From Sulfitobacter sp. (GTDB lineage Bacteria > Pseudomonadota > Alphaproteobacteria > Rhodobacterales > Rhodobacteraceae), in the NCBI GenBank assembly GCA_026421135.1, contig JAPKCR010000028.1:1-10793 (forward strand): a stretch of 10,793 bases of DNA. Direction: 5' to 3'. Of this stretch, positions 6,431-10,754 are shown piece by piece; the first letter of the stretch is position 1, and every line of letters starts with the position of its first letter. The notes under the pieces are model-generated. The model ran no database searches. It was not told the origin of the DNA and saw only the letters and a program-made list of their open reading frames with translations. A program made the translations under genes and the position numbers.

Positions 6431-7570
6431 TTAGCCTTTGATCAGCCGTTCATGTTCCTGCAGGGCAAAGCGGTCGGTCATCCCCGAGATATAATCGCTA
6501 ACGATGCGCGCAAGTGCGGTGTCACCTTCCGCCTCTTCGACATCCTTGCGCCACTGTTTGGGTAACTCTTCTGGATGGGCGCAAAAATGTGGAAATAGGT
6601 CGTTGACCACCTCGGTCACCTGTTTGCGCATGAGCACCACGGATGGCGCACGGTACATTCGGTCGAACAGAAACGCGCGGATCACCTTGAGGTCTTGGAA
6701 AACCGGGTCCGAGAACCGGATCACCGTCCGGCCTGCCATGCGAATATCGGTCGGCGTCTGCGGCTCCATTTCGTCTAGACGGGTGCGTGCAAAGTTGATC
6801 ACGTCCTCGACCAGCACGCCAAAGAACCGGCGCAGCGCTTCGTGACGGCGGCGATAATAGTTCAAGCCGGGGTACAAACGGTCCACCTCGGCAAAGTTCC
6901 GGTCAAGAATGGGCAGCTCGGCCAGCTCGTCCGTCGAAAACAACTCGGCGCGCAGTCCGTCGTGCAGGTCATGGTGGTTATAGGCAACATCATCGGCAAT
7001 CGCGGCCACCTGCGCCTCGGCGCTGGCATAGGTGCCCAGTTCGAGGTCATGCTTGCGACCATAAACCTCAAGCGCCCAAGGCAGCGGGCCCGTGACCGGA
7101 CCGTTATGCTTGGCTAAACCCTCCAAGGTCTCCCACGTCAGGTTCAGCCCATCGAATTCCGCATAGTGCCGCTCAAGATGGGTAACGATGCGGATCGCCT
7201 GCGCGTTATGGTCAAACCCGCCATAGGGGGCCATCAAGGCCTGCAACGCGTCCTCGCCTGTATGACCGAAAGGCGGATGGCCTAGGTCATGTGCCAAGGC
7301 GACAGCCTCGGTCAGCTCGGCATTTAAGCCCAAAGCGCCCGAAATCGTGCGCGCTACCTGCGCCACCTCGATTGAGTGGGTCAGCCGCGTGCGATAATAA
7401 TCGCCCTCGTGTTCAATGAAAACCTGCGTCTTGTGCTTGAGCCTGCGAAAGGCGCTGGCATGGATAATCCGGTCGCGATCCCGCTGAAAGCAAGACCGAA
7501 AAGTGCTTTCCTCCTCCGGCATCAACCGTCCCCGGGTCGCTGCCGGATCAGAGGCAAAAGAAGCGCGCAT
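6431..7570 (-). CDS. dgt: deoxyguanosinetriphosphate triphosphohydrolase-like protein (HD domain)
   Basis: A 379-residue member of the dGTPase family of HD hydrolases, which cleave dNTPs to deoxynucleoside and triphosphate. Visible features are the N-terminal region FRSCFQRDRDRIIHASAFRR with KHKTQV (about 24-49), TRLTHSIEVAQVAR with the first metal-binding His at 65, the HD doublet in AHDLGHPPFGHTGED (H94, D95), and the distal Asp in AIADDVAYNHHDLHDG (D193/D194). The length fits the shorter type 2 family rather than the longer E. coli Dgt, so substrate range may be broader than dGTP. The ATG at 7570 has AAGGA 9 nt upstream. It heads the minus-strand block and diverges from the Fe-S carrier gene across an 84-bp region holding candidate promoters for both. 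Confidence 0.93.
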   Translation of the reverse strand: MRASFASDPAATRGRLMPEEESTFRSCFQRDRDRIIHASAFRRLKHKTQVFIEHEGDYYRTRLTHSIEVAQVARTISGALGLNAELTEAVALAHDLGHPPFGHTGEDALQALMAPYGGFDHNAQAIRIVTHLERHYAEFDGLNLTWETLEGLAKHNGPVTGPLPWALEVYGRKHDLELGTYASAEAQVAAIADDVAYNHHDLHDGLRAELFSTDELAELPILDRNFAEVDRLYPGLNYYRRRHEALRRFFGVLVEDVINFARTRLDEMEPQTPTDIRMAGRTVIRFSDPVFQDLKVIRAFLFDRMYRAPSVVLMRKQVTEVVNDLFPHFCAHPEELPKQWRKDVEEAEGDTALARIVSDYISGMTDRFALQEHERLIKG

Positions 7571-7654: not shown

Positions 7655-7978
7655 ATGAACCTGCCACCCAAAGTTACCTCTCGTGCTTTTGAACGCCTTG
7701 CCGAAATCGGTGCGGCGGCCGATGGCAAGGCCCTGCGCGTCGCAGTCGAAGGCGGCGGATGCTCGGGTTTTCAGTATGAGATCATACTGGATGATCCCAA
7801 GGACGATGACATGATCCTAGAAGGATCCGGTCAAAAAGTCGTGGTCGACAGCATCTCACTGCCCTTTCTGGCCAATGCGACAATAGACTTTTCCGAAGAA
7901 TTGATCGGTGCGCGTTTCGTAATTGAAAACCCGAATGCAACCAGCGCCTGCGGCTGCGGTACGTCTTTCTCGATGTAG
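7655..7978 (+). CDS. erpA: A-type iron-sulfur cluster carrier (ErpA/IscA/HesB family)
   Basis: A 107-residue A-type carrier that accepts Fe-S clusters from the scaffold and delivers them to apo-proteins in the cytosol. The three family cysteines are all present: C36 in GGGCSGFQY, and C99 and C101 in the C-terminal SACGCGTSFSM. The intervening text (DSISLPFLANATIDF and GARFVIENPNA) is standard for the family. The name erpA is preferred over iscA because it stands alone and divergent from dgt, as is common in alphaproteobacteria, rather than inside an isc or suf cluster; this choice is inference. The ATG at 7655 has GGAG 7 nt upstream. It converges with the unknown minus-strand gene ending at 8031, with a hairpin at the junction. 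Confidence 0.9.
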   Translation: MNLPPKVTSRAFERLAEIGAAADGKALRVAVEGGGCSGFQYEIILDDPKDDDMILEGSGQKVVVDSISLPFLANATIDFSEELIGARFVIENPNATSACGCGTSFSM

Positions 7979-8025: not shown

Positions 8026-8050
8026 TGGCCTCATGTTAATGAGGCCATTT
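8026..8050 (+). terminator. stem-loop at convergent junction, candidate terminator of the Fe-S carrier gene
   Basis: A perfect 9-bp stem, TGGCCTCAT (8026-8034) and ATGAGGCCA (8039-8047), encloses a 4-nt loop GTTA. On the plus strand it is followed by only a short TTT, so it is a modest intrinsic terminator for the upstream plus-strand gene. It overlaps the stop codon and last codons of the minus-strand gene (TGA at 8031-8033), so on that strand it would sit at the end of the reading frame. No T-run follows on the minus strand. Confidence 0.5.
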
Positions 8051-9107
8051 CCCCCGAGCAGGCCCGCGCAAATCCTTCAAAAAATTCCCCAAATTTTGGG
8101 CTGGACTGTTCTGCCGCCTCAATCACCGTTTGCTCGGCTTCGCTTAGTTCCGGCAACAAGCTAAGCCGCATGCGTGACCAGTCCGCCAACCGCTTTGGGC
8201 CTAGCTCAAACAAACCTTCTGACAACCGGCGCAATGCGCCTTGCCCCACCATTGCGCCGTGAATGGTCACCTGCCCCGTCGGTACAGCATGGCCAAATGC
8301 GCGGCGTCCGGTCATTTGGGCCAACCAGCCCGTGACAAGATACCCGTGATAAGCGTCTCCGGCGTGGGCCTGTGAACCGCCCGCAAAACTGCAGGCCTCA
8401 TGGGCCGCGACCACCAGACGTTCCCAGATCGGGCTGGGGGTTACGCCTGCAAGACGCAGTGCCGCACAGATTTCAGCCAGCAGATCACTGTCCTGATCCA
8501 GAAACGCCAGCAGACCGGCATATTCGAGACTGGTCAGTACCTCTGGGGCCACAGCGGGGTCGCGCTGGCCATAGTCACTCAGATAGAAAATAATATGGGC
8601 CAGCTCATAGGCCGCCTTTTTGTTGGGCAAGGCAAAGGTTTCAGACCGGGCGATAAACCGATGCAATCGCTCAGCAAGTTCAGTCCCCTGCTGTTGCCCC
8701 TTAACACCGCGCCGTGCCAACAGCCGCGCGGCCTCACCCCTTTGTAAATCTGACAGCTCCGCCTCGGGCAGCCCTTGCCGCGCGACCCAATCGCAAAGCG
8801 CCTCTCCCTGAGTGCCGCCTGCGCCCAGATCCTCAAGGTCCAGACAGATCGACAGAAAGAACCGATAGTACTGCGGGAAAAATTCAAGCTGCACGCGGAT
8901 GTCATCATAAAATGATGCATAGGGTGCCAGTGCAGCATCCTGAATTTCAGTCGACATGCTAGCCAAAATGCCCAGCCACTCGGCATTTTCTTTCAGCCAA
9001 AATACATCCCCCCGCGCCCGCCTGTGATCGGCAAACATAGAACTTAGCGCTACAAATCCGGAGGCGTTAACCTTGTCCGGCGGTACAAAAGAAAGAATAT
9101 TCGACAT
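8031..9107 (-). CDS. unknown, probably all-helical protein (358 aa), partner gene of the repeat peptide
   Basis: I cannot name the family. The protein is 358 residues, soluble, with no signal peptide or transmembrane segment. It seems helical throughout, with alternating Leu/Ala-rich helices. Notable stretches are FYDDIRVQLEFFPQYYRFFLSICLDLEDLG (about 66-95, aromatic-rich), KKAAYELAHIIFYLSDYG (163-180), and a His-containing segment near 236-256 (AHEACSF, then AHAGDAYHGYLVTGW). Cysteines are few and form no Fe-S or zinc motif. I see no radical-SAM, YcaO, LanM, ATP-grasp or kinase signature. The ATG at 9107 was chosen over an upstream one at 9155 because GGAGG lies 6 nt before it and the extension runs through the intercistronic hairpin. 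It follows the repeat-peptide gene by 63 bp on the same strand, so co-transcription is likely. A role in modifying, binding or exporting the peptide is inferred from position only. Confidence 0.8.
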   Translation of the reverse strand: MSNILSFVPPDKVNASGFVALSSMFADHRRARGDVFWLKENAEWLGILASMSTEIQDAALAPYASFYDDIRVQLEFFPQYYRFFLSICLDLEDLGAGGTQGEALCDWVARQGLPEAELSDLQRGEAARLLARRGVKGQQQGTELAERLHRFIARSETFALPNKKAAYELAHIIFYLSDYGQRDPAVAPEVLTSLEYAGLLAFLDQDSDLLAEICAALRLAGVTPSPIWERLVVAAHEACSFAGGSQAHAGDAYHGYLVTGWLAQMTGRRAFGHAVPTGQVTIHGAMVGQGALRRLSEGLFELGPKRLADWSRMRLSLLPELSEAEQTVIEAAEQSSPKFGEFFEGFARACSGEMASLT

Positions 9108-9110
9108 GGG

Positions 9111-9123
9111 CTGCCTCCGGCAG
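9111..9123 (-). promoter_or_regulatory. hairpin enclosing the Shine-Dalgarno of the 358-aa gene
   Basis: On the minus-strand message CTGCC-GGA-GGCAG forms a 5-bp stem with a 3-nt loop. The Shine-Dalgarno GGAGG occupies the loop and the start of the 3' arm, and the ATG follows 3 nt after the stem. Translation of the second gene may therefore be held down unless ribosomes or a factor open the stem. This is a structural reading by eye, not an energy calculation. Confidence 0.45.
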
Positions 9124-9153
9124 GATTCTGCGCCGATCTTCGGGCGCAGAATC
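9124..9153 (-). promoter_or_regulatory. 11-bp perfect intercistronic hairpin
   Basis: Arms 9124-9134 (GATTCTGCGCC) and 9143-9153 (GGCGCAGAATC) are perfect inverse complements around an 8-nt loop. The hairpin lies 17 bp after the stop of the repeat-peptide gene and just before the Shine-Dalgarno of the next gene. On the sense (minus) strand no T-run follows, so it is more likely an mRNA-stability, processing or partial-attenuation element than a full intrinsic terminator. Such hairpins often raise expression of a small upstream gene over the gene behind it. Confidence 0.6.
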
Positions 9154-9170
9154 AAATTTAAGATTTGAAA

Positions 9171-9578
9171 TTAGCAGCTTGTTGTAAACATCTCGACCAG
9201 ATGTCCCGATGTCATATCCGCACCGGACGGGGCGCAGCTGGTGGTAAACAGCTCGACTTGGTGTCCCGATTTCATATCGGTACCAGAAGGAGCGCAGCTG
9301 GTGGTAAACAGCTCAACCAGATGTCCCGATTTCATATCGGTATCAGACGGGGCGCAGCTTGTGGTAAACAGCTCGACCAGATGCCCGGAATTCATATCGG
9401 CTCCAGACGGGGCGCAGCTTGTGGTGTACAGTTCAGTGCCCCCACCGATCGCCATTTCAGCGGGTCCCGAACTGGATCCGGTCGTGAACAGGTCTGTTCC
9501 AAACCCAGCATGGATCGAGGTCAGTGATGACGGGGCGACCGAGGAAAGTGTGTCTTCGACATAGGAAAGTGCAGTCAT
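9171..9578 (-). CDS. cysteine-containing tandem-repeat peptide (135 aa), candidate multi-core precursor
   Basis: Not a family I can name. The first about 29 residues (MTALSYVEDTLSSVAPSSLT then SIHAGFGTD) look leader-like, without signal peptide or membrane segment. From residue 30 the protein is built of 20-residue units: one degenerate unit (30-49, Ser in place of Cys), four full units (50-69, 70-89, 90-109, 110-129) and a 6-residue partial unit ending the protein. Each full unit reads L-F/Y-T-T-S-C-A-P-S-G/D, then A/T-D-M-x-S-G-H-L/Q-V-E. Cysteines stand at 55, 75, 95, 115 and 135, the last being the C-terminal residue. Met (62, 82, 102, 122) and His (66, 86, 106, 126) recur in register. 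The ATG at 9578 has AAGGA 7 nt upstream; the longer frame to 9632 lacks support. It is followed by a hairpin and the 358-aa gene. A RiPP-type precursor with repeated cores or a soft-metal-binding peptide are the main readings. Confidence 0.85.
   Translation of the reverse strand: MTALSYVEDTLSSVAPSSLTSIHAGFGTDLFTTGSSSGPAEMAIGGGTELYTTSCAPSGADMNSGHLVELFTTSCAPSDTDMKSGHLVELFTTSCAPSGTDMKSGHQVELFTTSCAPSGADMTSGHLVEMFTTSC
9174..9491 (-). repeat. 60-bp coding tandem repeat, about 5.3 copies
   Basis: Period is exactly 60 bp. Copies in coding order are 9432-9491 (divergent), 9372-9431, 9312-9371, 9252-9311, 9192-9251, and 9174-9191 (first 18 bp of a unit only). The five inner copies share long near-identical blocks such as GGTAAACAGCTC and ATTTCATATCGG on the plus strand. 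Differences are both silent and amino-acid changing. The period equals 20 codons, so copy number can change without a frameshift. Confidence 0.95.
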
Positions 9579-9699: not shown

Positions 9700-9726
9700 A
9701 AGTTATCCACATATCTGGCCCGTCAA
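9700..9726 (-). promoter_or_regulatory. weak candidate promoter for the repeat-peptide unit
   Basis: Read on the minus strand, TTGACG (9726 to 9721) is a good -35; the best -10 downstream, TAACTT (9705 to 9700), is poor and the spacing is 15 bp. Transcription from here would include the whole 9590-9655 dyad in the leader. An alternative -10, TAGAAT (9607 to 9602), with TTGCAA 19 bp before it, would instead place the inner palindrome across the promoter and give a leader of under 20 nt. I cannot decide between them. Confidence 0.25.
9703..9711 (+). promoter_or_regulatory. DnaA box (perfect consensus)
   Basis: TTATCCACA matches the classical high-affinity DnaA box exactly. A one-mismatch copy, CTATCCACA, lies in the same orientation at 9780-9788. 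Both lie in the AT-rich interval between the repeat-peptide gene and xth; the perfect box overlaps the weak candidate promoter of the peptide unit. No cluster of boxes or dnaA/dnaN neighbours is seen, so this is not an argument for a replication origin. Confidence 0.4.
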
Positions 9727-9818
9727 AATATGAGTAGAGCCATTTGAAAACATCCGGAAAAACCGAGAATGTCAGAATTCTATCCACATTCATTCTTGAG
9801 AAGCCAGAACACAGAATA

Positions 9819-9944: not shown

Positions 9945-10754
9945 ATGAAAATCGCAACTTTCAACATAAACGGGATCAAGGCGCGTATCGACGGCCTGCC
10001 ACAGTGGCTGGATGAGGCGCAGCCTGATGTCGTGATCCTGCAAGAGATCAAGTCGGTCGATGAAAACTTTCCGCGCGAGATATTCGAGGATCGCGGATAT
10101 AATGTGGAGACCCACGGGCAAAAGTCGTTCAACGGGGTCGCGATCCTTTCAAAGCTGCCGCTCGAAGACGTGACGCGGGGCCTGCCGGGCGATGAGAACG
10201 ACGATCAGGCCCGCTATATCGAAGCGTCTGTGATGGGTGACAACCAAGCCATCCGCATCTGTGGTCTGTACCTTCCCAACGGCAATCCGGTTGAATTGGA
10301 CAGCGCGGGGGCCCCTGTCGAGGGCGGCAAATATGCCTACAAGCTGGCATGGATGCAGCGCCTGCAAAACCGCGCCAGCGCATTGTTGGCCGAAGAGACG
10401 CCGTTTCTGATGACTGGAGATTTTAATATCATACCGCAGGCTGAAGATGCCGCGAACCCGGCAGCTTGGCGTGAGGACGCCCTGTTTCGTCCGGAATCGC
10501 GCGCTGCGTGGCGGAGCCTGCTTGCTCTTGGTCTGACCGAAGCATTTCGCGCCCGGGTTCAAGGTCCGGGACACTATAGTTTTTGGGATTACCAAGCCGG
10601 AGCATGGAACCGGAACAATGGTATCCGCATCGACCACTTCCTGCTCAGCCCCGCCTGTGCGGACATGCTCCGCGATTGTCAGATCGACAAGGATATACGC
10701 GGACGGGAAAAGCCTTCGGATCATGTCCCGGTTTGGGTTGATTTGGAATTTTAG
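9945..10754 (+). CDS. xth: exodeoxyribonuclease III
   Basis: A 269-residue AP endonuclease / 3'-5' exonuclease of the XthA family, acting in base-excision repair. All catalytic motifs are visible: FNINGIKAR (N7), ILQEIK (metal-binding E34), LYLPNG (Y109), LMTGDFNI (D159, N161), IRIDHFLLS (D230) and the C-terminal KPSDHVPVW (D259, H260). Length matches the family. The ATG at 9945 is preceded by GGGGG at 9934-9938 with 6-nt spacing, an unusual but workable ribosome site. TATACT at 9923-9928 resembles a -10 but is too close to the ribosome site to be convincing. It diverges from the repeat-peptide unit. No T-rich hairpin follows the stop within the window. Confidence 0.96.
   Translation: MKIATFNINGIKARIDGLPQWLDEAQPDVVILQEIKSVDENFPREIFEDRGYNVETHGQKSFNGVAILSKLPLEDVTRGLPGDENDDQARYIEASVMGDNQAIRICGLYLPNGNPVELDSAGAPVEGGKYAYKLAWMQRLQNRASALLAEETPFLMTGDFNIIPQAEDAANPAAWREDALFRPESRAAWRSLLALGLTEAFRARVQGPGHYSFWDYQAGAWNRNNGIRIDHFLLSPACADMLRDCQIDKDIRGREKPSDHVPVWVDLEF

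Follow-up and report, generated by a model that had tools for sequence, protein, structure and literature searches.

A repeat-peptide gene and its DUF6902 partner: a probable multi-core RiPP-like unit in Rhodobacteraceae-type bacteria

The stretch of DNA analysed here (10,793 nucleotides in all, hereafter the window) carries on its minus strand two adjoining genes, the first for a repeat peptide of 135 amino acids and the second for a protein of 358 amino acids belonging to the family DUF6902 (Table 1). The gap from the stop codon of the peptide gene to the start of the 358-aa gene is 63 bp. The pair is flanked on one side by an exonuclease III-like gene with an Exo_endo_phos domain (9945-10754, plus strand) and on the other by genes for a HesB-type Fe-S protein (7655-7978, plus strand) and an HD-domain dGTPase-like protein (6431-7570, minus strand); the assignments are from Pfam, and we take the three genes to be xthA, hesB and dgt. 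Neither reading frame of the pair is a product of chance, since scoring 8000 candidates against the 358-aa protein yields 1324 relatives at E<=0.001, and other genomes have, upstream of DUF6902, a repeat peptide that begins alike and is built of repeats of the same kind. Those relatives of the 358-aa protein that carry organism names come from Sulfitobacter, Roseobacter and Tritonibacter, for which reason we regard the bacterial family as Rhodobacteraceae-like; the bacterium of the window is probably marine. The original prediction had placed a two-gene unit at 8031-9578, with a leader-like start and 20-residue repeats in the peptide, and both frames lie exactly there in the predicted order, with a 60-bp array and six core sites spaced 20 residues apart.

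Table 1. Positions of the features of the repeat-peptide/DUF6902 unit in the window and, in the last three rows, of comparable small reading frames at other loci
Feature	Position	Strand	Basis
Repeat-peptide gene, 135 aa, stop codon included	9171..9578	-	ORF and relatives
Leader-like N-terminus, residues 1-23	9510..9578	-	boundary is a judgement
Core site 1, TTGS, residues 32-35	9474..9485	-	hand-counted
Core site 2, TTSC, residues 52-55	9414..9425	-	hand-counted
Core site 3, TTSC, residues 72-75	9354..9365	-	hand-counted
Core site 4, TTSC, residues 92-95	9294..9305	-	hand-counted
Core site 5, TTSC, residues 112-115	9234..9245	-	hand-counted
Core site 6, TTSC, residues 132-135, exactly C-terminal	9174..9185	-	hand-counted
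Tandem array, 60-bp units, 4.2 copies (20-residue units)	9174..9425	-	TRF
Intergenic stem-loop between peptide and DUF6902 genes, no T run	9124..9153	-	fold, covariation
DUF6902 protein gene (PF21843), 358 aa; distant relative of DUF6895	8031..9107	-	ORF, Pfam, alignment
Perfect DnaA-box motif TTATCCACA, upstream of peptide gene	9703..9711	+	motif scan
DnaA-box-like motif CTATCCACA, one mismatch, 77 bp from the first	9780..9788	+	motif scan
Small ORF(s), repeated aromatic motifs, preceding a DUF6895 gene that stands alone	L106:6107-6703
Small ORF(s), repeated aromatic motifs, preceding a DUF6895 gene that stands alone	L107:7937-8368
Small ORF(s), repeated aromatic motifs, preceding a DUF6895 gene that stands alone	L108:6769-7185

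The leader of the window peptide begins with MTAxAYxExT, a start common to most close relatives. The array behind it (85% matches, score 364) is the only one in the window with a TRF score of at least 50, and the six core sites of the peptide with their preceding residue read FTTGS once, YTTSC once and FTTSC four times. Between the two genes lies a stem-loop (-26.1 kcal/mol, z -4.34) with two-sided changes at 4 of its 10 pairs in 8 related loci, all of the window's clade; it may tune the level of the enzyme relative to that of the precursor, and it is not a general feature of the unit (median z -1.08 over 79 loci, with 24 of the 79 below -2).

The same design recurs across 89 precursors, which together contain 540 G-anchored units (median 6, maximum 20) spaced mostly 20 or 21 residues apart; all except two (L085 and L086, by this G-anchored count) have at least two units. 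The consensus of the unit is G-[DE]-[AG]-[VT]-[EQG]-[MLA]-F followed by four variable residues and x-P. These four residues, the core, are those most common in their own precursor in 527 of the 540 units. Because that count had filtered units by similarity to a hand-assigned core, it was repeated on unfiltered units, of which 475 out of 492 had the modal core; all units were identical in 61 of the 74 precursors having three or more. Identity at the four core positions is 0.94-0.99 within precursors and 0.32-0.56 between them, as against 0.77 between precursors for the F that precedes the core and 1.00, by construction, for the anchor G. Homogeneity is weaker in the window's clade, where one of the six window cores is TTGS and two relatives (L002 and L003) are mixed. 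By hand we assigned 41 core versions (that of L086 is uncertain), among them TTSC, TSGS, SSGS, TSWS, TSGL, SSCS, CSAS, TNWC, ITSC, PSGS and MCCS. When mapped on a rapidly built tree of DUF6902 (88 rows, with 39 of 85 inner branches weak), the cores change at least 54 times, compared with 67-71 times in five label shuffles, so that cores follow descent only loosely. In having a constant anchor beside a homogenised, switching core, these peptides are closer to multi-copy pheromone precursors than to a structural repeat. The emphasis that the prediction had laid on Cys does not carry over to the family, as core position 4 is Cys in 16 of the 89 precursors and Ser in 50. The repeat peptides also matched library families such as a dioxygenase N-domain, UBA_HYPK and several viral ones, matches that we put down to noise from the repeats, because no single stretch is significant on its own and the scores add up the repeats; several whole-protein scores passed the Pfam cut-off, for example UBA_HYPK with the precursor of L059 (49 bits against 27).

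A sample of 295 genomes from the window's bacterial family contains 82 with DUF6902, namely the window's own, 80 others whose loci were fetched (L013-L092), and one (G139) with a contig-end fragment that was left out. Adding ten loci from named genomes (11 loci, of which L007 and L008 share one assembly and were counted once), which may duplicate sampled genomes, gives 91 loci. The repeat peptide lies upstream on the same strand in 89 of these 91 and directly upstream in 78 of the 80 fetched loci, so that the genes are linked elsewhere, a point on which the prediction had been set to stand or fall. Several precursors with unusual cores were recognised by eye or by repeat score after an automatic pass, and some are cut by contig ends or N stretches; no precursor is visible at L075 or at the divergent L089. 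At two further DUF6902 loci, from a sample of the phylum (L101 and L102, outside all counts), a repeat peptide again lies upstream; its cores are of yet another type, STSSF, that the fixed core pattern missed. At L085 there are apparently two tandem precursor genes upstream of DUF6902, the cores being of the FTSGS type in one and of the FGSSC type in the other.

Searched in the reverse direction with one precursor as query, 60 of the 295 genomes gave matches, 57 of them DUF6902-positive; as the query recovers 57 of the 82 positives, this search is about 70% sensitive. It gave no convincing match among the 213 DUF6902-negative genomes, where three matches (E 2.6e-4 to 7.7e-4, 28-30% identity, two or three internal stops) look like noise. 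The unit occupies a fixed site between xthA and hesB-dgt, with xthA found at 83 of 90 loci and hesB at 77 of 90, figures that are partly limited by the flanks available. Of the 213 DUF6902-negative genomes, 40 were taken from among the higher-ranking xthA matches; in 35 of these 40 the distance between hesB and xthA is at most about 3.9 kb, and scanning there with a simple motif found no orphan precursor.

A third gene, of about 300 amino acids, follows DUF6902 in 62 of the 91 loci, and 38 of the 55 third genes with an intact predicted reading frame overlap the DUF6902 stop codon by 4 bases. All five third-gene proteins scanned with Pfam contain EamA (PF00892), a family that exports amino acids and small metabolites. 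The EamA gene was not seen at 29 of the 91 loci, including the window and its nine nearest relatives in the set; one of the 29, L091, ends too early to tell. The description of a two-gene unit holds for the window and its near relatives; the commoner unit has three genes, including the transporter. A search for the missing gene elsewhere in the window's genome gave seven relatives of 24-31% identity; as the assembly is 87% complete, the gene may yet be present in that genome. The full three-gene set is also present in a genome of another class (L165:1733-4251), with a precursor containing three GCYT cores, DUF6902 at 2.3e-102 and EamA at 2e-12, at a site other than xthA. The set thus behaves as a transferable module.

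Upstream of the precursor, DnaA-box motifs (TTATNCACA or TATCCACA, on either strand) were found in 55 of 80 loci and not in the other 25, the related genomes among them not being independent; these 80 leave out nine of the 89 precursors (five hand-read, three short-flanked and one without a unit). The same 80 loci have none in a 420-bp stretch of the DUF6902 gene, and there are none upstream of xthA in the 40 DUF6902-negative genomes, which argues that the motifs belong with the repeat-peptide unit and not with xthA. Since the number of matches within the window alone is unremarkable, the evidence lies in their recurrence across loci. Two same-strand boxes stand exactly 76 bp apart at 14 loci by hand count, and there is no such motif near the L165 set. 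We hypothesize that DnaA controls the peptide promoter. By eye, GATTC (GANTC), often as TGATTCGG, also seems recurrent upstream of the DnaA boxes, for example at L001 and L010.

The 358-aa protein matches DUF6902 (PF21843) over residues 1-349 (E 2.4e-135, 451 bits, cut-off 27) and DUF6895 (PF21836) more distantly (E 2.1e-19, 70.5 bits, cut-off 23.8); besides one sub-threshold family, there are no other Pfam matches, and no NCBIfam, PADLOC or PHROGs family was matched. Pfam and NCBIfam showed no described RiPP enzyme or recognition domain in it. By its title, Shi et al. 2026 (doi 10.1021/acscatal.5c08590, cited in review PMC13352647) deals with a lasso-peptide epimerase of the DUF6895 family, and we assume that the DUF6895 of that title is PF21836. 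When six DUF6902 proteins, of which one comes from another class, are aligned with three DUF6895 proteins that are 18-19% identical to the 358-aa protein, M1, H171, G180, A201, D208, E212 and H254 are invariant. Of these, His171, His254, Asp208 and Glu212 form a plausible acid/base or metal site, judged from the sequences; since a profile search found no solved structure related by sequence to the 358-aa protein, this site is inferred from conservation. Homology and shared residues place DUF6902 with the DUF6895-type family, and that title links the family to epimerase activity. We found no known unrelated role for DUF6902, in keeping with the prediction, its relative being titled a peptide epimerase.

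Precursor-like genes also accompany strong members of the superfamily outside DUF6902. At L106-L108, the loci of the three DUF6895 proteins aligned above (E 4e-22 to 1e-41), the DUF6895 gene is directly preceded in each case by one or two small reading frames, with the recurring motifs GPWFVLAG / GRWYVYVG, GPWYIYKE / GPWFVLKE, and DWTFVSPNYVYKGS / DWTFISHNYVYKGS, which look like another type of precursor. No adjoining precursor could be recognised at L166-L170, where DUF6895 matches are weaker (one below cut-off), or at the partial L109, so that pairing with a small peptide is seen for strong members only and does not extend to the whole superfamily. The weak matches of L166-L170 sit in other-looking proteins, in other genomes of the phylum. 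Within the family of one distant genome, DUF6895 was found in that genome only (1 of 151).

Some other identities were tried for the pair and rejected. None of the six window proteins is of a lasso type by Pfam, and between hesB and xthA there is, besides DUF6902 and the peptide's own frame, no ORF longer than 135 amino acids, which speaks against a lasso peptide. The 358-aa protein has no match at E<=1 to DUF692, the unrelated MNIO RiPP enzyme of similar number, and neither protein of the pair matched any anti-phage defence family at E<=0.01.

Given the gene pair, its close linkage, its homogenised and switching cores, the third gene and the recurrent promoter motif, we consider it probable that this is a compact multi-core RiPP-like unit, in which short cores are modified by DUF6902, perhaps by epimerisation, before their release and export. 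The small gene would encode the precursor, with a short leader and repeats in which four variable residues (mostly TTSC in the window) follow the anchor, G-[DE]-x-x-x-[ML]-F, and usually have x-Pro next. DUF6902 would be an enzyme dedicated to this precursor, recognising the anchor and modifying adjacent residues in each repeat. That the precursor is modified in some way is likely in our judgement; that the modification is epimerisation, from L to D and using the invariant His171, His254, Asp208 and Glu212, we propose tentatively. It is the likeliest chemistry because of the kinship with DUF6895, a peptide epimerase by title, and core positions 2 and 4 are the likeliest targets, as neither is Gly in any of the 89 precursors (position 3 is Gly in 42 and position 1 once). 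A general protease, encoded elsewhere in the genome, would free many copies of a very short product, and the EamA-type transporter would export it in most relatives; the window and its near relatives, which have no EamA gene at this site, would need another export route. The product may act in signalling or competition.

Two features by which RiPPs are recognised are found here, an encoded precursor with a leader and a variable core, and a dedicated neighbouring gene able to act on it (in the window and the 78 fetched loci). The multi-core precursor and partner gene of the prediction are in this sense supported, its Cys emphasis is not, and modification is what we would expect of the pair. Against a RiPP reading count the absence of a protease gene from the unit and the fixed chromosomal site, which is unusual for a secondary metabolite.

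The chemistry is where the first alternative departs. With the same precursor and processing, DUF6902 might install another modification, such as dehydration, crosslinking or cyclisation at a Ser, Thr or Cys in core position 2, and we regard this as possible, if somewhat unlikely. Position 2 is indeed Ser, Thr or Cys in 86 of the 89 precursors, and the polar residues kept across the superfamily suggest an enzyme. The remaining three have Asn, Ala and Pro (the Pro, in L086, uncertain), so that no single side-chain chemistry at position 2 fits all; moreover, none of the Pfam families that the 358-aa protein matches at E<=1 binds ATP, SAM or Fe-S, and the sole functional lead in the superfamily is the epimerase title.

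It is improbable that DUF6902 is instead a non-catalytic binding partner (a chaperone, an export adaptor or an immunity protein) of an unmodified repeat peptide. Many of the positions invariant within DUF6902 are aromatic or structural-looking, no known cofactor motif is present, and the modification is a prediction from sequence, all of which would suit such a role. His171, Asp208, Glu212 and His254 nevertheless persist at 18-19% identity, which fits catalysis better, a paper title calls the relative DUF6895 an enzyme, and transport is already supplied by the EamA gene in most loci.

We give just as little credence to the idea that the repeat protein stays intact and uncut, with a structural or regulatory role in which its repeats offer multiple binding sites to DUF6902 or some other partner. 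The missing protease gene, the fixed site and an anchor conserved as well as the core would agree with it; cores that are homogenised within precursors and switch between related genomes beside a constant anchor, as for a released product, argue against it, as do unit numbers of up to 20 and a third gene for a small-solute-type transporter.

Returning to the reading of a modified and released core, the concerted switching of four-residue cores, the small-solute-type transporter and the DnaA-box motifs point to a short peptide product, one that genome mining by known RiPP enzymes would miss. More speculatively, and with considerable doubt, the system may constitute a RiPP class of its own, with products four to six residues long that probably contain D-amino acids, of which each precursor would give many copies through a single DUF6902 enzyme, exported by a dedicated EamA-type transporter and expressed from a DnaA-box promoter, whose output would follow chromosome replication by virtue of those motifs, and which would serve as a pheromone-like signal of recognition or competition. 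If so, strain-specific cores that switch in concert would be a recognition or competition signal of Rhodobacteraceae-type bacteria.

Set beside known systems, the anatomy is RiPP-like, and we could not match the enzyme family, the core design or the gene set to a described class. Among the titles and abstract beginnings listed, which leave most subscription literature outside their scope, there is no description of a repeat-peptide/DUF6902 system. Some databases call such peptides DUF6749, the name borne by 4 among the 82 precursor relatives listed, whose repeat design is the same; the DUF6749 model gave no match in the Pfam copy used, and no mention of it was found in the literature searched. 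The unit therefore offers a testable joint function for two unexplained families, DUF6902 and these peptides. Multi-core RiPP precursors carry several cores behind one leader, and the present ones share with them the leader, the tandem and variable cores and the dedicated neighbouring gene; they differ in having up to 20 repeats with a four-residue variable region, and no described RiPP enzyme family is matched except through kinship with DUF6895. The lasso epimerase MslH epimerises a ribosomal peptide at its C-terminus, and here the core is the exact C-terminal end of 51 of the 89 precursors; MslH has a metallophosphatase-type fold, whereas no lasso-epimerase structure was found by sequence for DUF6902. 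Closest is the DUF6895 lasso-peptide epimerase, going by its title: its substrate is a peptide, and DUF6902 matches its profile and shares H171, D208, E212 and H254. DUF6902 is nonetheless a Pfam family of its own, its substrate would be a tandem repeat, and no ORF of lasso-cyclase size adjoins it. The just-described peptide-epimerase superfamily would be extended to a stand-alone system present in 82 of the 295 genomes sampled.
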